A stretch of DNA of 64,000 nt. Origin: Pseudomonadota bacterium (lineage in GTDB: Bacteria > Pseudomonadota > Gammaproteobacteria > Burkholderiales > REEB80). The stretch spans positions 1-64,000 of the forward strand of contig JAGWIG010000009.1 of NCBI GenBank assembly GCA_028873515.1, written 5' to 3'. Below are positions 20,443 to 61,974 of the stretch, piece by piece; within the stretch, counting starts at the first letter, position 1, and the number at the start of each line of letters is the position of its first letter. The position numbers and the translations under genes are program-made. The notes beneath the pieces were generated by a model. It worked only from the letters and a program-made list of their open reading frames with translations. It was not told the DNA's origin and searched no databases.

Positions 20443-22943
<2,501 letters not shown>

Positions 22944-44235: not shown

Positions 44236-44309
44236 GGCGGGGTGGCAGAGTGGTTATGCAGCGGCCTGCAAAGCCGTGGACGCCGGTTCGATTCCGACCC
44301 CCGCCTCCA
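44236..44309 (+). tRNA. tRNA-Cys (GCA), ICE attachment site
   Basis: 74 nt with encoded CCA. Acceptor arms GGCGGGG and CCCCGCC pair; the anticodon stem-loop CGGCC-TGCAAA-GCCG carries GCA; the T loop is GGTTCGATTCC. An integrase gene begins 148 bp beyond its 3' end, so the 3' half of this tRNA is the likely attachment core; integration has kept the tRNA whole. Confidence 0.97.
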
Positions 44310-45590: not shown

Positions 45591-45863
45591 TCAGGTTTTG
45601 TCCAAATCAGGCTTCCAGCCCCTTGGTTTTCTATCTTTTCTCAACAGACTTTCCACTCCTGTAATCTCATCTTGATGATTACGCCTTTCTTTAGTCTGCT
45701 CACGGGATTTCATTCGTAAATAAGTTTCAAGGTCTCGTTCCATGAAAACCCAGGCTCGCCCAATCTTGGCCGCGTATAGTTCTCCAGACTGGGCTAATTC
45801 AGTTAATGTTTTTGGATGGATTTTTAATATCTCAGCCGCCTCGACAAGATCATATGTTTTCAT
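45591..45863 (-). CDS. Excisionase-like helix-turn-helix protein
   Basis: A 90-residue protein with a MerR/excisionase-type winged helix in its first 50 residues: YDLVEAAEILKIHPKTLTEL (helix-turn-helix), then ELYAAKIGRAWVFMERDLETYL (wing and next helix), the layout of HTH_17 excisionases. A charged basic tail follows. The ATG at 45863 is preferred to a TTG six bases upstream. It is the last gene of the regulatory operon and faces the integrase tail to tail. Role as recombination directionality factor is inferred from domain and place. Confidence 0.75.
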   Translation of the reverse strand: MKTYDLVEAAEILKIHPKTLTELAQSGELYAAKIGRAWVFMERDLETYLRMKSREQTKERRNHQDEITGVESLLRKDRKPRGWKPDLDKT

Positions 45864-45875
45864 AATCAAGAAAAT

Positions 45876-46343
45876 TCACTGATCACAAATCGGGCATATG
45901 GTTATGTCCCGTGGATAGAGTTGGCTGACAATAACTTTCATGGAACAACATCGACATGGAACAAGTTTAAGCTTTTTGGTCCGCATATGGATCGTCAGGT
46001 TCCATGCCCTGTCAAAGGGGATCTGCGCATTAGAGCCGTATATCAAAATATAACTTATATAAGCTCTCAACACCCTTTCCGCTTCCATGTCATCAGGATG
46101 CGTTGTACACACCTTATCAAAAAGATTAGCAAAGGCACTTGATTGCATGACCATGGGGCCAAGAAAGAATTTTGCATCCCATGGCGATTGGCCGCTTGTG
46201 GATGAGCGATTTGAAATAAATTTATGCATTTTCCTGGCTCGGGCAATCGATAAGCCCAAGGCTTGGGCAATGGTAGGCGATCTTGCTCCGGCATAAATCA
46301 TGCGTTCTGCAATCTTGTATTTTTGGTGATTAAGCTGTTCCAT
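45876..46343 (-). CDS. FlhC-like transcriptional activator (SetC/AcaC type)
   Basis: FlhC forms a complex with FlhD that activates class II flagellar promoters; relatives SetC and AcaC activate conjugation of SXT-type ICEs and IncC plasmids. The ATG at 46343, with AAGGA upstream, gives 155 residues. The N-terminus has AERMIYAGARSPTIAQALGL, like the FlhC helix-turn-helix region. The C-terminus has a zinc site made of CRCC and CPIC: two CxxC pairs 20 residues apart (130/133 and 150/153), the spacing of E. coli FlhC (137/140, 157/160). FDRAWNLTIHMRTKKLKLVPC parallels [21 protein letters not shown]. There are no flagellar genes here, so a transfer regulator is the likely role. Confidence 0.8.
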   Translation of the reverse strand: MEQLNHQKYKIAERMIYAGARSPTIAQALGLSIARARKMHKFISNRSSTSGQSPWDAKFFLGPMVMQSSAFANLFDKVCTTHPDDMEAERVLRAYISYILIYGSNAQIPFDRAWNLTIHMRTKKLKLVPCRCCSMKVIVSQLYPRDITICPICDQ

Positions 46344-46347
46344 CGTG

Positions 46348-46698
46348 TTAGTCCTTGGCAATGATCAAGGCACGGACAATTTCATCAATTTTCGCGTTGA
46401 TATCACCATTTTCCTGGTTTGCAACAATTTTTCTCAACAAATCCAAATCATGCAGCCTGGGTGTAAACAACATGATTCCGCGTTGGGCCAGCTTGCATTT
46501 GGTTGAATAGTCGAGGGAGCTATAAACTTCAATCAGCCCTGTCCCGTTGGCTCTGCCAATCAGTGTATTGGCATCATCCACATGCGTCATGGATAAACTG
46601 CTCAATGTTTGCAATCCAACCATGTTGAATTGCGAAACCTGCCGAGATATTGTTTCAATTTGCTGTTTTACTTCACCACTTAATAATGCAGTAACCAT
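46348..46698 (-). CDS. FlhD-like partner of the activator (SetD/AcaD type)
   Basis: A 116-residue helical protein, the same size as FlhD. Direct similarity is faint: LQTLSSLSMTHVDDANTLIG parallels the FlhD LAALTLPQMVKLA stretch and RGIMLFTPRLHDLD parallels TGIMLSTRLLND in sequence and position. The main support is that the next gene, four bases on, encodes an FlhC homologue. A ribosome site AGGGAG lies before the ATG at 46698. As FlhD alone does not bind DNA tightly, it would act through the FlhC-like protein. Confidence 0.6.
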   Translation of the reverse strand: MVTALLSGEVKQQIETISRQVSQFNMVGLQTLSSLSMTHVDDANTLIGRANGTGLIEVYSSLDYSTKCKLAQRGIMLFTPRLHDLDLLRKIVANQENGDINAKIDEIVRALIIAKD

Positions 46699-46699
46699 T

Positions 46700-46990
46700 T
46701 CAAATATCTCCCTCGTTACTCAGGTTAATATTGCTAATAGCTTGCAATTTGTCCCGGAAACTCAAAATTGCCTGTTCAATAATCATTCGATTTTTCCAGC
46801 CATTCATGGCTTCTATATCCTTGAGTGCTCGGCTGGCCGCTTCAGACAAAATAACGTGCACATTCTTTCGGCCCTGATTCTGGTATTCATTTAAACGTTG
46901 CCTTTCTTTGGCAGAATCGTATTGCCGAGATTTGGTGGTGCGGCCAGATTCCATTCCACCCAAGGATTCAGGTGGGATGGATGATGTCAT
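46700..46990 (-). CDS. Small DNA-binding protein, ribbon-helix-helix-like
   Basis: A 96-residue basic protein. Residues 40-90 (RKNVHVILSEAASRALKDIE, then MNGWKNRMIIEQAILSF) give a beta strand followed by two helices, the layout of Arc/CopG ribbon-helix-helix proteins; the N-terminal 40 residues are polar. Such proteins act as repressors or relaxosome accessory factors on mobile elements. The ATG overlaps the upstream DUF3102 gene by 4 nt and its stop lies one base before the FlhD-like gene, so it may regulate this operon. The family call is from pattern only. Confidence 0.55.
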   Translation of the reverse strand: MTSSIPPESLGGMESGRTTKSRQYDSAKERQRLNEYQNQGRKNVHVILSEAASRALKDIEAMNGWKNRMIIEQAILSFRDKLQAISNINLSNEGDI

Positions 46991-47970
46991 TTAATTTTCT
47001 CGATTGAATCGATTACAGCCTTTATCTGGATCGAGTGACTGTTTATTACCTGGAGAATGCTTTTGAATTCACCAATCATTTCTTTGGATAAATCGCCACT
47101 CGCAGATATCAGGTTGGCTTCCTGTGACCAGGCCAGCACTTCGCTGAGTTTGTTTCGATAATTGATAAGCTTGTCAGTCAACGCACGTTGGCGTTGGCGA
47201 TCAAGTTTTTGTTTGGAAATATCGTTTTGAAGTTCATCGCGTTGTTTTGCAAGCTTTGCAATTTCGCTGGAGCAGGTAATTTTTTCTCGTTCAAGGCGTT
47301 TGGCCTCTTCTCTCAGGACTTTAACCTTGTCCTCATCTTCTTTACCGGCATTTTTTAGTCTTTCCAACTCCTTGGATACTTCCTGCAGTCGCGTATGGAT
47401 TTCAATCCCTTTTGCAGAAAGCCCATCTATATTCTGGTGTGCAGTGTCGCGTTCCTTTTCAAGTACTTTAATTTGTTCCGTCATTTTCCGAAGCTGGATT
47501 TTTACATCGACATCCATTTCCTTTATGGCTTCTTCTTTTGCAGCTTCAATTTGTCTGCGTATTTCATCTGCATTAATGCTTTCACCGCTTTCTAATCTTT
47601 CGATGGTGGAATCTAGAACTTCCGCTGGGGCTGTTTCTACCAATTCGTAGAGTATCTTTGCTGGTAAAGCCATATTCTGCATCGGTACATTATGAAATTT
47701 TTCGGCTACTGCAATATAGCGCTGCATGGAACGACGCGAATATCCAAACTCTGCTTCTGCCCATGTCATGAATTTCTTTTCTGGTAACCGCCGTCTTGCC
47801 TCAATCAGTAAATTGCCAATTTCAATAATGGATTCAGCCACTGATTTATTTAGCGAACGAAGACGATAAGTGATGCTGATGATGTGTTCCCTGTCTTGCA
47901 CAGGAATGGAATTGAAATCGAATACCACAAGAGCTGAGTTATTTTCAGTGCTGACGACTGCTTCTTTCAT
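46987..47970 (-). CDS. DUF3102 coiled-coil protein
   Basis: A 327-residue protein, first gene of the regulatory operon. The ATG at 47970 follows a perfect AAGGAGG; a start 87 nt upstream lies in the operator region and is rejected. Residues about 25-95 form a DUF3102 domain (SIIEIGNLLIEARRRLPEKK and FMTWAEAEFGYSRRSMQRYI), which includes a putative helix-turn-helix and is common on plasmids and phage. Residues about 130-270 are a long heptad-patterned coiled coil. The overall design recalls plasmid proteins combining DNA binding with filament or dimer formation (partition or KfrA-like). Function unknown; a role in stability or regulation is inference. Confidence 0.7.
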   Translation of the reverse strand: MKEAVVSTENNSALVVFDFNSIPVQDREHIISITYRLRSLNKSVAESIIEIGNLLIEARRRLPEKKFMTWAEAEFGYSRRSMQRYIAVAEKFHNVPMQNMALPAKILYELVETAPAEVLDSTIERLESGESINADEIRRQIEAAKEEAIKEMDVDVKIQLRKMTEQIKVLEKERDTAHQNIDGLSAKGIEIHTRLQEVSKELERLKNAGKEDEDKVKVLREEAKRLEREKITCSSEIAKLAKQRDELQNDISKQKLDRQRQRALTDKLINYRNKLSEVLAWSQEANLISASGDLSKEMIGEFKSILQVINSHSIQIKAVIDSIEKIK

Positions 47971-47994
47971 ACAACCTCCTTTTGAATATGCCTT

Positions 47995-48101
47995 AGTGCA
48001 TTTTGCAAAAAAATAAGTGCATGAAGCGGATGAATGATGCAAAAAAAAGCGCATCAATCAAAAACTCAAGCTTCATCATAGCCATTATTTTTTTTTGTCA
48101 A
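47995..48101 (-). promoter_or_regulatory. Promoter and repeated operator of the regulatory operon
   Basis: On the minus strand, TTGACA (48101-48096) and TATGAT (48080-48075) with a 15-bp spacer form a likely promoter. Between it and the DUF3102 start lie three AGYGCAT motifs on the plus strand at 47995, 48016 and 48048, spaced 21 and 32 bp, or two and three helical turns. Two of these are next to A7/A8 tracts preceded by TGC. The arrangement suggests cooperative binding by an autoregulator. Confidence 0.6.
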
Positions 48102-48190: not shown

Positions 48191-48334
48191 AGCCTAAAAC
48201 GTGTACACGTCACCATATAATAAAATCAACAGGTTATCAAAAATTCGTAAAATGGGCACCGTGCCCATTTTTCTATGATAATTGTAACTTATTGATATTA
48301 TTTGTTTATGAAAAATCAGGTATGTACACGTATC
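48191..48334 (+). promoter_or_regulatory. Repeated intergenic module, copy 1
   Basis: A 144-bp block similar to 58872-59005. It starts with 22 bp identical in both copies, including the perfect palindrome ACGTGTACACGT (48199-48210). A 23-bp palindrome centred on 48260 (AAAATGGGCAC, C, GTGCCCATTTT) follows at exactly the same distance in both copies. TGTACACGTAT recurs at 48323-48333. It lies in the non-coding stretch 47971-48416 ahead of the TraI_2-like gene. It may be a control site for the transfer operon, a bidirectional terminator, or contain the transfer origin. The 82 bp that remain before the gene hold no clear consensus promoter. Confidence 0.7.
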
Positions 48335-48416: not shown

Positions 48417-49547
48417 ATGAATATCCTATCCTTTTTTAATAAAAAACAGGGGTCAATAATTGTCCATGAAGGGAATAAGCCTGGTGTGTCACCTGTTTTG
48501 ACTGGGCTGCCTGGTTCGATGCCTCATGATATCCGGTGCGCCCTCGATGAAAAAATAAAAGTTTTGCTGGACACATTAATTGTCGATCGGCCGCTGATTA
48601 TTGATCCTGTAAACCTGCTTCTGAAGTGGGTTTCCTATGCCCCACGGTATCAGGACGATGCCAAATACGGCCTTGCCCTGCAATCTGTTGATACAGCCAT
48701 AGTCGCTTCTAAAATTGCTGATGGAACATTATTCACTGGGCTTGAGTCCTCTGAAAAGAGAAGAGTGTTAGAACCCCGTTATCGGTATGCGGCATTTATT
48801 GCGGGACTTTTTTCAAACCTGCCCTCCCTGGCCAGTGCCCAGGTCATGAGCGAAGACAAGATATGGTCGCCCATGAATGAGCCTTTGCATGACTTTGTAT
48901 TACGTAATGGAGATTTTCATCTTGTCTGGTCTGGGGTAACGCGAGAATCGGCGCTATGGATTGTATCGAGACACATTCCCGAACCGGTAATCAGTTATTT
49001 AAATGAGGCCAATCCATCGATCCTGTTTGAAATGCTGGCTGCCATTGCCCCCGAAAAACCATTATCCCGCCTTCAACAGGTTGTTTCTACTTCTATGGAA
49101 CGTGTCATCAGCCAGTATAAATCCCAATCAACCATACCTGTGGACAAACCTGTTGCTCAACAAATTAATCTGGAAAATGTCTCGGCAAAAACAAAAGAAA
49201 CTCCAACTGTAAAAGCTGAGCTCATTACTACTCCACACCCAGATAAAAAGGAACAATCCCAATCCGGATTGAAAGCCGAAGATTTATATAAATCAATGGG
49301 GGAAGCCACGGCTGCACTATTTCAATCCATTGCCGAGGATACTGAAAGAAAACCGGAAGTGGCTGAACAAATCAAGCCTTCAGAATCTGGCATTGCAATA
49401 CCTCTGGCCTTGATTGCAGGGTATGGGGTAGTCAAGGCAGTGGTGCTGGATGGATTAAAACGATCGGGAATCATGATAGAGCAAACCAGAACACACATCA
49501 TCATCAGTCATGAAGCATCATCAGTGATTTTCAGGAAATCCAAATAA
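48417..49547 (+). CDS. TraI_2 domain protein, putative MOBH relaxase (atypical)
   Basis: MOBH relaxases nick the transfer origin and pilot the strand. In these 376 residues the segment SSEKRRVLEPRYRYAAFIAGLF (about 111-132) matches the TraI_2 stretch found in SXT- and PFGI-type relaxases, with the preceding LLLKWVSYAPRYQDD and DGTLFTGLE also family-like. A C-terminal domain (about 280-376; AEDLYKSMGEATAALF ... VLDGLKRSGIMIEQ) resembles the winged TraI_2_C region. The histidine/aspartate metal motif normally found around residues 75-100 is not visible, and the protein is shorter than typical relaxases. It could be a non-catalytic relative. It overlaps traD by one base. Confidence 0.65.
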   Translation: MNILSFFNKKQGSIIVHEGNKPGVSPVLTGLPGSMPHDIRCALDEKIKVLLDTLIVDRPLIIDPVNLLLKWVSYAPRYQDDAKYGLALQSVDTAIVASKIADGTLFTGLESSEKRRVLEPRYRYAAFIAGLFSNLPSLASAQVMSEDKIWSPMNEPLHDFVLRNGDFHLVWSGVTRESALWIVSRHIPEPVISYLNEANPSILFEMLAAIAPEKPLSRLQQVVSTSMERVISQYKSQSTIPVDKPVAQQINLENVSAKTKETPTVKAELITTPHPDKKEQSQSGLKAEDLYKSMGEATAALFQSIAEDTERKPEVAEQIKPSESGIAIPLALIAGYGVVKAVVLDGLKRSGIMIEQTRTHIIISHEASSVIFRKSK

Positions 49548-51382
49548 TGGCCCTTTCCAAATATGCCAACATCTGGCGCATACCGTACGAAGGCTATGCC
49601 GCCCTGGCCTGGCTAGCCGCCAGTGGGCTGACTCTTGTTTTTTATGGAATAGATGATTATACGGCCATGATTATTGCGTTGATTGCTGCAATTGCTGGCA
49701 TCAGGCGTTTTTTTCAGGCCAAGCGGTTAATTGAACAAAGAGTCTCTCTCTCTGGAAATGCTGGCATTATAACCATGACTCGTCAGGAACTTTTAAATAT
49801 ATCTTCTTTGGATCCGGATGGAATGTTTTTGGGATTGGGATGGAAGTGGCAACCAAGACATGCACGTTTATGCAGGGAACTGTTCGCAAAAAATGATGAT
49901 GAAATGCCAACTGTTCCCAAATGGATGCTAAAAATATTCGGTCATACCAGAGCTCCTGAAGAGACAATCGGGAACCCCAGAATTCATGGACTGGAAACAC
50001 GTGATACCAATATTTATGCCATGCTGGAGGCACTAGCTGGCCATACCTTGATTGTTGGCACAACAGGTAGTGGGAAAACCCGTCTTTATGAAGTCCTGGT
50101 TACTCAAGCCATTGCCGCTAACGCAGTGGTTATTTTCATCGATCCAAAAGGCGATCGGGATCTCGAACTACGGATGCGTGATGAATGCAAAAAATCTGGC
50201 CGTGATTTTCTGTTTTTCCATCCTGCATTTCCAAGCAAAAGCATCCGTTTCAATCCTTTGAAAAACTGGCACAGTCCAAGTGAAATTGCTTCCCGCATTG
50301 CCCAGCTTCTTGGTAATGGTGATAACGATAACTTTGTGCAGTTTGCTCACCTGACTATTGATCGGGTTATTAATGGTCTACTTGCCATAGGTGAACGGCC
50401 CAGCCTGAGAAAAATCATGGAGTATGTCCAAATCGGGGTTGATCCGTTGCTGGATAAACTGCTTGATCAATATTTGTTTGAAATATTTGGGTCAGGATGG
50501 GAAGGAAAGCTAACCGGATATCTGCAGGACAAGAAAGCAGGTAATGTCAGTCGTACTGACGCCAAGATTGCACTTTATACCGCTGAAGTAAGAGGGGCAA
50601 ATCCCAATGATGTCATGGATGGGCTGGTTAGTATCTATCACCACAGCAAAGAGCATTACAACAAGATGATCCTGGCTCTACTCCCTTTGCTGCAGCAACT
50701 TACCAGTGGAGAAATTGGGGAAATGCTCTCACCCGAGCATGAAAACATGGATGATCCACGACCCATCTTTGATTCAGAAAAAATCATCAAAGGGGGAAAG
50801 GTTTTTTACATGGCAACCAATTCATTGTCAAACAAACAGGTTGCAACCGCCATTACTTCCATTGCCCTTGCTGACTTTGCTGCTGTCGCTGGATCCATTT
50901 ACAACTTTGAGGATGCCAAACAAGACATCTATTTGATGGTGGATGAAGCAGGTGAGGGGATTAATGATCAGTTTACACAAATCCTGAATAAAGGTCGTGG
51001 GGCAGGGTACAAGACTTTTTTTGCTACTCAGACACTATCTGATCTGGAAGTGCGCCTGGGTAGCAAACAAAAGGCCAATCAAACTATCGGCAATGCCAAT
51101 AACATGATTTCTTTGCGCCTGCAGGACACCGACACGGCAAAATATATTGCGGATAAATTTGGAGAAACGACCGTTCGCAGTATTAGTGTATCGCAATCGA
51201 ATCGTGCCGAATCCGAAGCCAACATGATGGAATTTGGTGGCACGGTAACGAGAGCCATGAAAGAGGAACAGACTGAACTTATGCCCATGAATGTTTTAAA
51301 GCGGTTGCCAAACCTGCAGTTTGTTGCCCTGGTCGCTGGTGGAAATCTATACAAGGGCCGTATCCCAATTATAACCAACTAA
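49547..51382 (+). CDS. traD: Type IV coupling protein TraD
   Basis: Hexameric inner-membrane ATPase that delivers the relaxosome to the secretion channel. The 611 residues have two N-terminal transmembrane helices (about 17-33 and 38-52), Walker A GTTGSGKT (171-178) after LAGHTLIV, the IDPKGDRDLELRM motif, Walker B in IYLMVDEAGEG, and the FFATQTLSDLE sensor segment followed by QTIGNANNMISLRLQD. It resembles TraD of SXT/PFGI-type elements rather than the F plasmid. TaAtG coupling links it to the preceding relaxase-like gene. Confidence 0.92.
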   Translation: MALSKYANIWRIPYEGYAALAWLAASGLTLVFYGIDDYTAMIIALIAAIAGIRRFFQAKRLIEQRVSLSGNAGIITMTRQELLNISSLDPDGMFLGLGWKWQPRHARLCRELFAKNDDEMPTVPKWMLKIFGHTRAPEETIGNPRIHGLETRDTNIYAMLEALAGHTLIVGTTGSGKTRLYEVLVTQAIAANAVVIFIDPKGDRDLELRMRDECKKSGRDFLFFHPAFPSKSIRFNPLKNWHSPSEIASRIAQLLGNGDNDNFVQFAHLTIDRVINGLLAIGERPSLRKIMEYVQIGVDPLLDKLLDQYLFEIFGSGWEGKLTGYLQDKKAGNVSRTDAKIALYTAEVRGANPNDVMDGLVSIYHHSKEHYNKMILALLPLLQQLTSGEIGEMLSPEHENMDDPRPIFDSEKIIKGGKVFYMATNSLSNKQVATAITSIALADFAAVAGSIYNFEDAKQDIYLMVDEAGEGINDQFTQILNKGRGAGYKTFFATQTLSDLEVRLGSKQKANQTIGNANNMISLRLQDTDTAKYIADKFGETTVRSISVSQSNRAESEANMMEFGGTVTRAMKEEQTELMPMNVLKRLPNLQFVALVAGGNLYKGRIPIITN

Positions 51383-57858: not shown

Positions 57859-58878
57859 ATGCGGTATTTTCTTCCTGTTTTAATCCTGATCATCCTGGGC
57901 ATGATGCCCATCAGCCAGGCCATGGCAAACGGATACCCGGATCCATCCCAGATTGCTGGCAATCCAGCCCCAGCCGCGTCCTCATCTTCTACAACCACAC
58001 AGGGTCAGAATCCGCAGCTTGAGGCCAATACGGTGATCAAAGAACTGGACAAGCTGGAAACCAATAGTGTGTTTACGCAAGCTTACGCGCTTGCGGCGAA
58101 AATGATGCCTACCGCGACTAAAATGCTGGGATTGCTTTCCGTGCTGATTATAACTCTGGCCGGAATAAGATTTGCCTTTACGGACAATCCAAACATCATC
58201 TTTGGAGAATTGATCAGTAACATCCTTCAAATCGGTCTGTTCTCATTTCTACTTTTTAACTACCCCTTATTCATAGAGAACCTGAACTGGCTGTTTGAAA
58301 CGTTACGAACCGTAGTCAATGCAAATTTTGAGGTGGCATGGCAAGCCATTGTTGGTACTTCAGTAACCGCGTTTAATGAAGCGATGAGCTTACATTTTCC
58401 ATCCATCTGGATGCATCCGTCGCTGTGGTTTAACATGGCCATGACAGCCAGTATTTCCTTGCTGTCTTCCCTGGCCATGCTATTTACGGGGCTGCTCTTT
58501 GTGCTCTACTGGTTTTTAAGTGATGCGCTTGCGGCTATCGCCATTGCCCTGGGACCTATATTTGTCTCAGTGGGCGTATGGGATGTCACCAAAGGCTTTT
58601 TTGAATCCTGGCTGGGTTTTTTTGTAAGCGCATTGGGGTACAAGCTCATTGCTGGCGTCATGATTAGCCTGATGAGCCAGACCATCCTTAGTTCATTTAC
58701 AGCAGATGCAGGCCACGCATCACCTGGAACAGCAGTGGGATCCCTGATCATGTCTGTGGCGTTTTCATATGTATTCATGCAGACGCCGAAAATCGCCTCA
58801 GCTTTATTTGGCGGGATAGCAGTCGGGGAATTCAAGATACCCAAAATGCCGGGTCCTAAAACACCTCCACCAGCCTAA
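57859..58878 (+). CDS. virB6: VirB6/TrbL polytopic membrane protein
   Basis: Inner-membrane channel component. The 339 residues have a signal-like N-terminus (LILIILGMMPISQAMA), a Ser/Thr linker, then at least five hydrophobic helices (for example LLSVLIITLAGIRFAF, LLSSLAMLFTGLLFVLYWFL, AAIAIALGPIFVSVG, LGFFVSALGYKLIAGVMISL). The GPIFVSVGVWDVTKGFFESWLGF stretch is the family's most conserved loop. Its stop codon lies inside the second copy of the intergenic module. Confidence 0.87.
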   Translation: MRYFLPVLILIILGMMPISQAMANGYPDPSQIAGNPAPAASSSSTTTQGQNPQLEANTVIKELDKLETNSVFTQAYALAAKMMPTATKMLGLLSVLIITLAGIRFAFTDNPNIIFGELISNILQIGLFSFLLFNYPLFIENLNWLFETLRTVVNANFEVAWQAIVGTSVTAFNEAMSLHFPSIWMHPSLWFNMAMTASISLLSSLAMLFTGLLFVLYWFLSDALAAIAIALGPIFVSVGVWDVTKGFFESWLGFFVSALGYKLIAGVMISLMSQTILSSFTADAGHASPGTAVGSLIMSVAFSYVFMQTPKIASALFGGIAVGEFKIPKMPGPKTPPPA

Positions 58879-59005
58879 AACGTGTACACGTCATGGCTTA
58901 ATAAAATCAGCATGTTATAAAAATAACCGGAAATGGGCACGGTGCCCATTTTCTATAAATCACGTAACTCATTGAAAACAATAATGCCAGTTTTGTACAC
59001 GTATT
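58872..59005 (+). promoter_or_regulatory. Repeated intergenic module, copy 2
   Basis: Begins in the last codons of virB6 with the 22 bp shared with copy 1, including ACGTGTACACGT (58880-58891). The central palindrome AAATGGGCAC, G, GTGCCCATTT (58931-58951) sits in the same register as in copy 1; its centre base differs (G instead of C) yet both arms are kept. The distal TGTACACGTAT is at 58994-59004, 53 bp from the centre against 63 in copy 1. It precedes the virB8-virB10 block. Confidence 0.7.
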
Positions 59006-59166: not shown

Positions 59167-59868
59167 GTGAAGTTTCCAGGAATAAAGCACAAAGATAATT
59201 TATCTCCGATCCCACATGAGAATATTGGAGAAGGTAAAAAAGAATGGTTTGAAGCTTTTGGTGCGCCTACTGTCAATGCAAACAGATGGTTCTTGATTTC
59301 CATGGCTCTTGCAGTCTGTCTTGTCGCCTTGTCTATTGCCTTTGCCCACCTGTTCCCCCTTAAAACCGTGGTTCCCTATATTGTGAGTGTGGATCAAAGT
59401 GGGTATGTTTCAGCCGATTCGGCTACAGCACAACATTACGTGCCAGGAGAAGCTGAAAAACGTTACTTCCTTGCAAAATGGGTCAGGGATTTATATACGA
59501 TAGACAATACCCTGACCGTGCAGTACCTCAAGGATGACTATTCTGTAACGATGGATAAGGCCATCCCTGAATTCAAGGATTTCATGCACCAGGACAATCC
59601 TCTCCAGCAATTATCGGATAATCCGCAAACCATCCGAACCGTCACCATTAATTCTGTTTCTTTTGTCTCAAGCAGTACGGCCTTAATCAGGTTTGTCACT
59701 GAAAAACGGAACGCCGACGGTTCACTGTCCAATCGCACAATGCGACTTGCAGCCATAGATTTCAAGATTATTCCCCCTACCACGGCACAGGAAATCCTTA
59801 CCAATCCGATTGGTCTTTTTATCGATAACTTCGACATTACCGACGATACCAATTCAACAGGAGATTAG
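59167..59868 (+). CDS. virB8: VirB8/TrbF inner-membrane assembly protein
   Basis: Bitopic inner-membrane scaffold of the secretion channel. The 233 residues have a cytoplasmic N-terminus (about 1-37, with EWFEAFGAPTVNANRW), a transmembrane helix (FLISMALAVCLVALSIAFAHL, about 38-58) and a periplasmic NTF2-like domain with PYIVSVDQSGYV, FLAKWVRDLYTID and VRFVTEK-like IRFVTEKRNADG. The GTG at 59167 has GGAG upstream. It starts the second secretion block after module copy 2. Confidence 0.87.
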   Translation: MKFPGIKHKDNLSPIPHENIGEGKKEWFEAFGAPTVNANRWFLISMALAVCLVALSIAFAHLFPLKTVVPYIVSVDQSGYVSADSATAQHYVPGEAEKRYFLAKWVRDLYTIDNTLTVQYLKDDYSVTMDKAIPEFKDFMHQDNPLQQLSDNPQTIRTVTINSVSFVSSSTALIRFVTEKRNADGSLSNRTMRLAAIDFKIIPPTTAQEILTNPIGLFIDNFDITDDTNSTGD

Positions 59869-59873
59869 TCAGC

Positions 59874-60662
59874 ATGAAATACGTACAATCCATCATACTT
59901 GTGTTGACCATGCTGCTTGGCATGTCTGGAATAGCCTTTGCCGATGCACAGGCTTACCCTATGCCGACTGACAACCATCTGGTCGAATTCCAGTATGATC
60001 CTGATCAAACCTATACCATCCTGGCCATACCCGATGCGGTAACCGATATCCAGATCGGAAAAGATGAAACCTTGATTGGCCCTCCGGCCATCGGGGATTC
60101 CATTGAATGGAAAGTTGCCGTCCTTGGGCGTCATATATTTATCAAGCCGGTTCGAAACAACCTGTTTACCAGCATGACCATTGTCACCAATAAACGGGCA
60201 TACCAGCTTACCCTGCGATCCAGTCCGACAGGAGGTAAATGGTACCAGCATGTAAGCTGGCAGTATCCCGATATCATCATCTCAAATCTCAAGATTGCTC
60301 AGGCAAATATTGAAAAATCCAAACAGGAAAAGCAACGTCTTTCCAGTATCAATGTATCCGCAGTACCTGACTATACCAATCTGAATTTTGATTACAGCGT
60401 GAGTGGTGATGATGACCTGAAACCCACCACGGTTTTCGATGACGGTAAATTCACCTATATCCGCCTTAAGCAGAGCATGCAGGAAATGCCAGCCCTGTTT
60501 ATAGATGAGAACGGTAAAAGCGAACTGGTGAACTATAACGTGCATGGTGAATATCTTGTCGTCCAACGAACGGCTGCTAGATTTGTTCTGAAATTAGGCA
60601 AGCAGGAAGTGCATTTAACGAACAACAAATTAAACAAAAGATTCTTTCATTCGTTCTGGTAA
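59874..60662 (+). CDS. virB9: VirB9/TrbG outer-membrane channel protein
   Basis: Forms the outer-membrane core ring with VirB10. The 262 residues have a signal peptide cut near AFADA (about 24), an N-terminal domain (about 30-125) and a C-terminal beta domain (about 168-250) with NFDYSVSGDDDLKPTTVFDDG, FTYIRLKQSMQEMPALFI, LVNYNVHGEYLVVQRTAARF and VLKLGKQEVHL. This C-terminal pattern recurs in the TcpQ-like gene at 62.7 kb. Confidence 0.92.
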   Translation: MKYVQSIILVLTMLLGMSGIAFADAQAYPMPTDNHLVEFQYDPDQTYTILAIPDAVTDIQIGKDETLIGPPAIGDSIEWKVAVLGRHIFIKPVRNNLFTSMTIVTNKRAYQLTLRSSPTGGKWYQHVSWQYPDIIISNLKIAQANIEKSKQEKQRLSSINVSAVPDYTNLNFDYSVSGDDDLKPTTVFDDGKFTYIRLKQSMQEMPALFIDENGKSELVNYNVHGEYLVVQRTAARFVLKLGKQEVHLTNNKLNKRFFHSFW

Positions 60663-60678
60663 GCACGGGATAAAAACA

Positions 60679-61974
60679 ATGAAAATGAATATCAATCAAT
60701 CGCCTGGGCCAGACGAACAAAGCCTGAAAGGCAAGCCAAGGCGTAATATCCATCGAATATTGGCGGTGCTGATCTCCACAGTTCTGGTTACAGCCATCTT
60801 TTATGGCGCATATAAACACCGGCATGAAGTTAAAGCAGAAAAACTGAAATCGGATCAACTAACCAACACCCAGATTCAAACGCCTACACAATCTGAAATT
60901 GAGCGCCTTATCAAGACCGATGTTGCCAATGCAGAAAAGGACAAGCAAAAAGTCAAGCCTATTGAACCTAAGCAGGGTCCAAATGGCATTCCACCAGAAT
61001 TAAAGAAAATTATCGAAAAGGGCAGAATAGAAAACAATGAACCGATAACAGGAAACGACAGCCCGAATCCTTCTGCTTCCAGCAAAATTCCGGCAGCGGT
61101 AGCACAGCGTCAGGAAGCGGCTGCAGCATCTTCCATTTTAATTCAGTATCAGCCACAGAATGACTACGAGAACTCTACAAGTCCAGGCGCTGCTTCGAAT
61201 GCACCCCCTCAGCCTGTTGTCCCGGCCAGTCCTGCCAGTGATCAGAACATCACGCCTAAAGACCTGGCCCAGGCCTTGAATTCGGGTCGGCCACAAGGAC
61301 CGGAAACAGTCAATGACCATAACAACCAGTGGCTAACATCGCAGTCAGATTCTTCCCAGACCGGGGTGATTAAGATTGTAAAGAACCAGTCACAGTATGT
61401 CATTAATCAGGGAACCATTATTCCTGCCGTGCTGGTAACCAGACTGGATAGTGACTTACCGGGTATGGTTGTTGCACGGGTCACCACGGATGTTTATGAC
61501 ACCATTAATGAGCATTATCTTCTGATCCCAAAAGGGTCCAGATTGATAGGACAATATGACAGCAATATCAGCACAGGACAGGAACGACTTCTTATTGCCT
61601 TCAACCGGATTATTCTTCCAAACGGAAATTCTGCCTATCTCGGCGGCATGCAGGGCGCAAGTGATACCGGGGAATCCGGATTCAGCGATCAGGTTAACAA
61701 CCATTTCTGGAAAATCTTTGGCTCATCTTTTCTGATTGCGGGACTGACGCAATGGGCTCAGGGAAACAATGCCACAACCCTGAACATGTACGGGGTGCCT
61801 CTTGGAGCCATGATGGGGAATGCAGCAGGTCAGGCCATGCTCAGCACGTCCAATGCCATTCTTGCCAAAAACCAGAATATCCAGCCAACACTGATTATAC
61901 GGCAAGGCTATCGCTTTAATGTCATGGTAGCCAGGGATATGCAGATGATGCCATATCAAGGGGCAGGCAATTGA
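60679..61974 (+). CDS. virB10: VirB10/TrbI channel protein
   Basis: Spans both membranes and gates the channel. The 431 residues have a cytoplasmic N-terminus, a transmembrane helix (ILAVLISTVLVTAIFYGAY, about 28-46), a long Pro/Gln/Ser-rich periplasmic linker (about 60-225), and the TrbI beta-barrel domain (about 230-425) with LIPKGSRLIGQYDSNISTGQERLLIAFNRI-type strands and the antenna region SFLIAGLTQWAQ. It overlaps the next gene's TTG start by 4 nt. Confidence 0.92.
   Translation: MKMNINQSPGPDEQSLKGKPRRNIHRILAVLISTVLVTAIFYGAYKHRHEVKAEKLKSDQLTNTQIQTPTQSEIERLIKTDVANAEKDKQKVKPIEPKQGPNGIPPELKKIIEKGRIENNEPITGNDSPNPSASSKIPAAVAQRQEAAAASSILIQYQPQNDYENSTSPGAASNAPPQPVVPASPASDQNITPKDLAQALNSGRPQGPETVNDHNNQWLTSQSDSSQTGVIKIVKNQSQYVINQGTIIPAVLVTRLDSDLPGMVVARVTTDVYDTINEHYLLIPKGSRLIGQYDSNISTGQERLLIAFNRIILPNGNSAYLGGMQGASDTGESGFSDQVNNHFWKIFGSSFLIAGLTQWAQGNNATTLNMYGVPLGAMMGNAAGQAMLSTSNAILAKNQNIQPTLIIRQGYRFNVMVARDMQMMPYQGAGN

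Follow-up and report, generated by a model that had tools for sequence, protein, structure and literature searches.

A mirror-symmetric module of about 130 bases is present in six copies in the genome from which the window, a stretch of DNA of 64,000 nucleotides, was taken. All six copies are intergenic. With a probability of roughly 0.55, judged from the sequences, the module is a dispersed, IHF-bent, dyad-symmetric operator of a mobile-element regulon, recognized by an element-encoded regulator. A dimer of this regulator would bind the odd palindrome at the centre, IHF (or HU) would bend the DNA on each side of the centre, and the outer TGTACA boxes, occupied by that regulator or by a further one, would fold back onto the centre. 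The closed complex, whichever the sign of its effect, would control outward promoters. These would be the promoters of the regulator/xis genes and of mobH-traD at copy 1 (c1), of virB8-10 at copy 2 (c2), and of the type IV-like CRISPR genes and the RDF/SbcCD-like genes at copy 4 (c4).

The copies in the window

The same plan is found in six of six copies: an outer box ACGTGTACA (or ACATGTACA), an IHF-like box, an odd palindrome of 21-23 bp centred on C or G, a second IHF-like box, and a second outer box. c1 (48191-48334, plus strand) lies between the regulator/xis operon on the minus strand and mobH-traD on the plus strand. Its outer-left box is the 12-bp palindrome ACGTGTACACGT (48199-48210). 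It is followed by the putative IHF site AATCAACAGGTTA (48224-48236, plus strand), which matches the degenerate consensus WATCAANNNNTTR exactly, and by the central palindrome AAATGGGCAC-C-GTGCCCATTT (48250-48270). The right half contains another putative IHF site, TATCAATAAGTTA (48285-48297, minus strand), also exact to the consensus, and the outer-right box, which is ACGTGTACA on the minus strand (48323-48331).

c2 (58872-59005, plus strand) is located between virB6 and virB8, and its outer-left box, again ACGTGTACACGT (58880-58891), begins at the virB6 stop codon. The putative IHF sites AATCAGCATGTTA (58905-58917, plus strand) and TTTCAATGAGTTA (58965-58977, minus strand) each have one mismatch to the consensus. 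They flank the central palindrome AAATGGGCAC-G-GTGCCCATTT (58931-58951), and the outer-right box is ACGTGTACA on the minus strand (58994-59002). In both copies all 12 bp of this palindrome are present in the outer-left box, and only a 9-bp part of it in the outer-right box.

The sequence-only reading had proposed that these two segments are copies of one module, and the alignment agrees. The first 22 bases (48191-48212 and 58872-58893) are identical, and 33 of the following 47 bases match without a gap. When the two intergenic regions are compared, the best match over 69 bases has 55 identities, against 32-37 in shuffled sequences (n = 12). Exact occurrences of ACGTGTACACGT in the window are only those at 48199 and 58880. 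The central palindrome AAATGGGCACNGTGCCCATTT is likewise found in the window only at 48250 and 58931, where 0.01 occurrences are expected at up to three mismatches. Its central base is C in c1 and G in c2, and both arms are kept.

The distal TGTACACGT begins 63 bp to the right of the centre in c1 and 53 bp in c2, just as described in that reading, where the offset was taken to be one helical turn. The whole set of copies bears this out. On the left, the distance from the far end of the outer box to the centre is 61-62 bp in six of six copies. On the right it is bimodal, with 61, 61 and 62 bp in three copies and 71, 71 and 72 bp in the others. In each of the 12 halves, the IHF-like box is 36-37 bp away from the centre. 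Six of the 12 boxes match WATCAANNNNTTR exactly, five have one mismatch and one has two; by chance, ~0.2% of positions in such sequence would match with no more than one mismatch.

Further copies and conservation of the boxes

The source genome is a draft assembly of 3.4 Mb, divided into 275 contigs. Its host may be an acidophilic betaproteobacterium resembling Ferrovum, to judge from similarities in gene order and habitat (compare PMC4886054). Two more perfect central palindromes were found, on contigs C167 (11764) and C181 (19993), and there are no others genome-wide at up to three mismatches. Each is inside a full module, c3 on C167 and c4 on C181. A sequence profile (model R1) was built from c1-c4 and used to search the same genome. 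It matched C145 at 361-496 (c5, E 4e-16) and C118 at 20465-20597 (c6, E 7.5e-12). The copies fall into two subfamilies. Subfamily I (c1-c4) has one common central palindrome. Subfamily II (c5 and c6) has the centre AAAAGTGGCACSGTGCCACTTTT, which is different yet perfectly symmetric, and the outer box ACATGTACA. The copies on C167, C181, C145 and C118 may belong to the same integrative and conjugative element (ICE) as c1 and c2. Plasmid- or ICE-type genes are present on C167 and C181, and the assembly does not join these two contigs to the ICE.

Between copies, the boxes are 82-97% identical and the spacers 29-70%. In each of the 15 copy pairs, conservation is higher in the boxes than in the spacers, with p values down to 6e-10 for c2 and c4 (57/60 bases in boxes, 31/67 in spacers). 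c5 and c6 keep 56 of 60 box bases, though their left flanks are only 74% identical over 315 bp and the gene next to c6 seems to have a broken start. Three position pairs differ between subfamilies I and II in both arms together, and 92% of cells obey the named symmetry, compared with 25-51% when it is slid. The changes in both arms, the boxes conserved over diverged spacers and the number of copies all speak for the selection on symmetry that had been suggested from c1 and c2. Because the sequences are few and represent essentially one subfamily split, a constraint on symmetry is supported but not proven.

The copies of subfamily I are also alike outside the boxes, which points to copying, not convergence, as their origin. 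The left spacers of c2 and c3 are identical at 29 of 33 positions. The left flanks of c1 and c4 have 52 bp in common (77%), including a promoter-like TTGTTA.

This relationship in the spacers is what a mobile repeat would show and counts against the operator. The main rival explanation is accordingly a MITE-like repeat comparable to the Correia/NEMIS elements, in which the outer boxes would be terminal inverted repeats for a transposase, IHF would assist, and the copies would be old insertions. It appears unlikely on the whole, but it is the alternative that deserves the most attention. Correia/NEMIS elements of Neisseria are 105-155 bp long and intergenic, have terminal inverted repeats and an IHF site, and may contain promoters (PMC2229807). 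The module fits that description in its length of 100-150 bp, its terminal inverted repeats, its IHF-like sites and the scatter of its copies over intergenic regions. These homologous copies sit at sites unrelated to each other, and what may be a decayed copy, on C253 (profile E 0.002), is near a transposase gene. Other features distinguish the module from these repeats. No direct repeat of at least 5 bp flanks any of the six copies, so there is no target-site duplication of that size. Six is a small number of copies for such a repeat, and a perfect central palindrome between two symmetric IHF-like boxes would not be expected. A search for a transposase with matching ends was without success. 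A MITE is expected to diverge evenly, while in the module the conservation is confined to the boxes.

Gene settings and candidate binding proteins

The placement of c1, c2 and c4 is consistent with a dispersed operator. Both window copies adjoin transfer blocks, as the sequence-only reading had stated. To the left of c1 is the regulator/xis operon (45591-48057, minus strand), which encodes a DUF3102 protein, a 96-aa protein, a 116-aa ORF overlapping the FlhC-like gene (PF05280 at 45876-46361, E 4e-14), and an excisionase-like HTH_17 protein. To the right are the genes for a MobH-type (TraI_2) protein and a TraD-like coupling protein (48417-51382, plus strand). c2, in the virB6-virB8 gap, precedes the virB8-virB9-virB10 block (59167-61974, plus strand). 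Like c1, c4 is between divergent operons. On its plus side are csf-like RAMP genes, a DinG-like helicase gene, cas1 and 18 CRISPR repeats, and on its minus side are genes for an RDF-like protein, an SbcCD-like pair and ssb; the names DinG, SbcCD and ssb were read from translations. c3 directly follows a tyrosine recombinase gene and is located between this gene and a converging purD-like gene, where no promoter is expected. This position counts against the operator, as does the result of a simple scan, which found no sigma-70-like promoter near c2. For the 96-aa and 116-aa proteins, structure models from single sequences gave no information, and Rfam returned no meaningful hit for the loci that were searched.

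At each end of the ICE is one copy of a 43-bp direct repeat, which corresponds to the end of a tRNA-Cys gene; the copies are at 44267-44309 of the window and at C178:16137-16179 (L047). A thymidylate-synthase-like gene is just inside the far end on C178. The contig beyond 64000 (L012:1-14388) shows that the ICE also has a type IV pilus cluster like those of conjugative plasmids. The CRISPR-Cas locus on C181 (L010:10320-17770) is type IV-like and has csf3-like and other RAMP genes, cas1, and 18 repeats at 61-bp spacing. Type I-E-like CRISPR-Cas genes are observed on C118 (L079:4210-10999), ~9 kb from c6. On C167 (L009:7279-10702), the genes for the tyrosine recombinase, a ParB-like protein (phrog_1033), a coiled-coil protein and a bactofilin are side by side. 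Aromatoleum EbN1 plasmid 1 also has a bactofilin gene (34% identity to that of C167) near a recombinase gene; the recombinase and the DNA-binding protein there show no sequence similarity to those of C167.

A broader proposal is that the module represents a new class of regulatory unit. A fully symmetric complex of the order outer-IHF-centre-IHF-outer would jointly switch conjugative transfer, excision, DNA metabolism and a type IV CRISPR-Cas system borne by the element, and a single genome would harbour two sequence specificities, those of subfamilies I and II. This proposal is tentative and rather doubtful. Should the module work as an operator in the way proposed, a single symmetric complex on the DNA would link transfer and excision with a CRISPR system of an anti-plasmid type on one element. 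The natural variants (61/61 versus 61/71 bp, and the two specificities) could then reveal the rules of helical phasing and symmetry for a long bacterial operator.

The converging genes around c3 would suit a bidirectional intrinsic terminator, which the sequence-only reading had offered for the central palindrome. The centre folds as a hairpin (z -2.5 to -3.8), and a terminator-like site with a G+C-rich hairpin and a T run was called at both window copies. This explanation accounts for the hairpin only, leaving the outer and IHF-like boxes, their spacing and their conservation unexplained, and c1 and c4 are between divergent genes. It is therefore very unlikely. The suggestion that c1 includes the transfer origin is also disfavoured, as an oriT is not expected in four copies, the number of copies in the subfamily of c1.

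The recombinase gene next to c3 raises another alternative, an attP-type recombination site for this enzyme. In attP of phage lambda, the order is arm, IHF, core, IHF, arm, and the order in the module resembles it. The core of the module, however, is almost perfectly palindromic and has no directional overlap region, and recombination between c1 and c2 would remove the transfer genes. The element has its ends at tRNA-Cys, beside another integrase. Relatives of the recombinase on five plasmids are not accompanied by such a unit; two of these plasmids have TGACAG palindromes instead. An attP-type function is thus hardly credible.

The sequence-only reading proposed a control site shared by the two transfer blocks and perhaps bound by the FlhDC-like pair. 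A phased, symmetric, shared site is indeed present, in six copies, and the FlhDC-like pair is one candidate to bind it. The FlhC-like gene, with its overlapping upstream ORF, is in the operon adjoining c1. In this explanation, the module would be a class II binding site at tra promoters, as for AcaCD and SetCD of IncC plasmids and SXT/R391 ICEs. These systems also have an element-borne FlhC-like gene and sites at tra operons or divergent promoters. The module arm AAAATGGGC is identical to one of the two halves of GCCCAAAATGGGC, the AcaCD core (PMC5058578), and -10-like sequences, CTATGAT and CTATAAA, are found to the right of the palindrome in c1 and c2. The half-sites are inverted, however: the module has GGGC-N5-GCCC, and the AcaCD core has GCCC-N5-GGGC (PMC5058578). 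In addition, AcaCD and SetCD sites are single boxes by the -35 element, without paired outer and IHF-like boxes (PMC4344509, PMC4207636, PMC5058578), and the position of c3 fits an activator site poorly. There are other MobH elements with an FlhC-like gene directly before mobH, namely the additional MobH/TraD element of the source genome (C55, L066:5066-9605; FlhC-like protein 26% identical to that of the window) and an Azonexus plasmid. In the stretches read around mobH and the FlhC-like gene of these two elements, the module is absent, so the involvement of the FlhDC-like pair is possible but unproven. As a class II site of this pair, the module is an improbable candidate.

The remaining alternative is a centromere-like (parS-type) partition site, with a ParB-type protein at the centre, IHF as in P1 parS, and gene control as a secondary function. 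The module centre is an odd palindrome with CAC-S-GTG, and plasmid pPA15W-NR has TTTCAC-S-GTGAAA six times. Five of these six sites are within ~4 kb of parAB and one is 85 kb into the record (L089:1480-5382, L090:35326), making them a candidate parS set. As for a parS-like site, one perfect palindrome is repeated in four copies, all intergenic, two of them on C167 and C181 and so placed on the ICE only presumptively. A ParB-like gene is ~1.3 kb from c3. P1 parS uses IHF at its centre rather than on both sides. IncC plasmids have 12-14 dispersed parS sites, some of them 10-25 bp from AcaCD sites (PMC10954446).

All these parS sites resemble the module in being palindromic, in occurring in several copies per element and in their CAC..GTG centre. 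Those of IncC plasmids and pPA15W-NR differ from it in lacking symmetric outer boxes at a fixed distance; no comparable flanking boxes accompany the pPA15W-NR sites. There is no ParA partner beside the ParB-like gene of C167. On two other plasmids with relatives of the ParB-like protein, no repeated odd palindromes, nor any unit comparable to the module, were seen in the parts read. The module copies, moreover, are at operon borders. A primary role in partition would thus be quite unlikely.

A protein of this family may nevertheless act as the regulator in the preferred operator. Odd palindromes with a central C or G are typical of KorB sites, and OB of RK2 is one such palindrome. The RK2 KorB/KorA system is similar to the module in several respects: its sites are dispersed on a conjugative element, and a 12-bp operator (OA) is paired over a distance with a separate palindrome, the 16-bp OB, for a ParB-family regulator (PMC11790492). 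The RK2 sequences are unrelated to the module, and none of the pairs forms a dyad-symmetric unit that includes two outer boxes and IHF-like sites. Dispersed sites acting over a distance on conjugative elements have precedents in RK2 KorB/KorA (PMC11790492) and in the IncC parS sites near AcaCD promoters (PMC10954446). The centre may be bound by a KorB/ParB-like protein or by another element-encoded dimer, and a KorB/ParB-like protein is weakly favoured over the FlhDC-like pair.

Searches outside the genome

When 399 genomes from the order and 369 from the class were searched, the module was found only in its own genome. In collections of viral, plasmid and phage sequences, the matches were all short and attributable to chance. 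A scan of 84,980 genomes for the exact pattern, in a set that may omit the nearest relatives and under the stricter filters of the large searches, returned no match. A VirB4-based scan of 84,980 genomes for relatives of the ICE yielded nothing usable and no close relative of the element. A palindrome with one mismatch in genome G247 looks like an ordinary terminator.

The nearest transfer systems are those of the Azonexus plasmid (VirB4 39% identical) and pTK9001 (VirB4 35% identical), and the stretches read of both are free of the module. It is also absent from the Burkholderiales plasmids with relatives of the recombinase. The TGACAG palindromes on two of these plasmids, 50-63 bp apart, were judged unrelated in sequence to the module. 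They are located at L084:1914-2040, upstream of the gene for PRTRC protein D, and at L086:1288-1413, and may constitute another looping operator.
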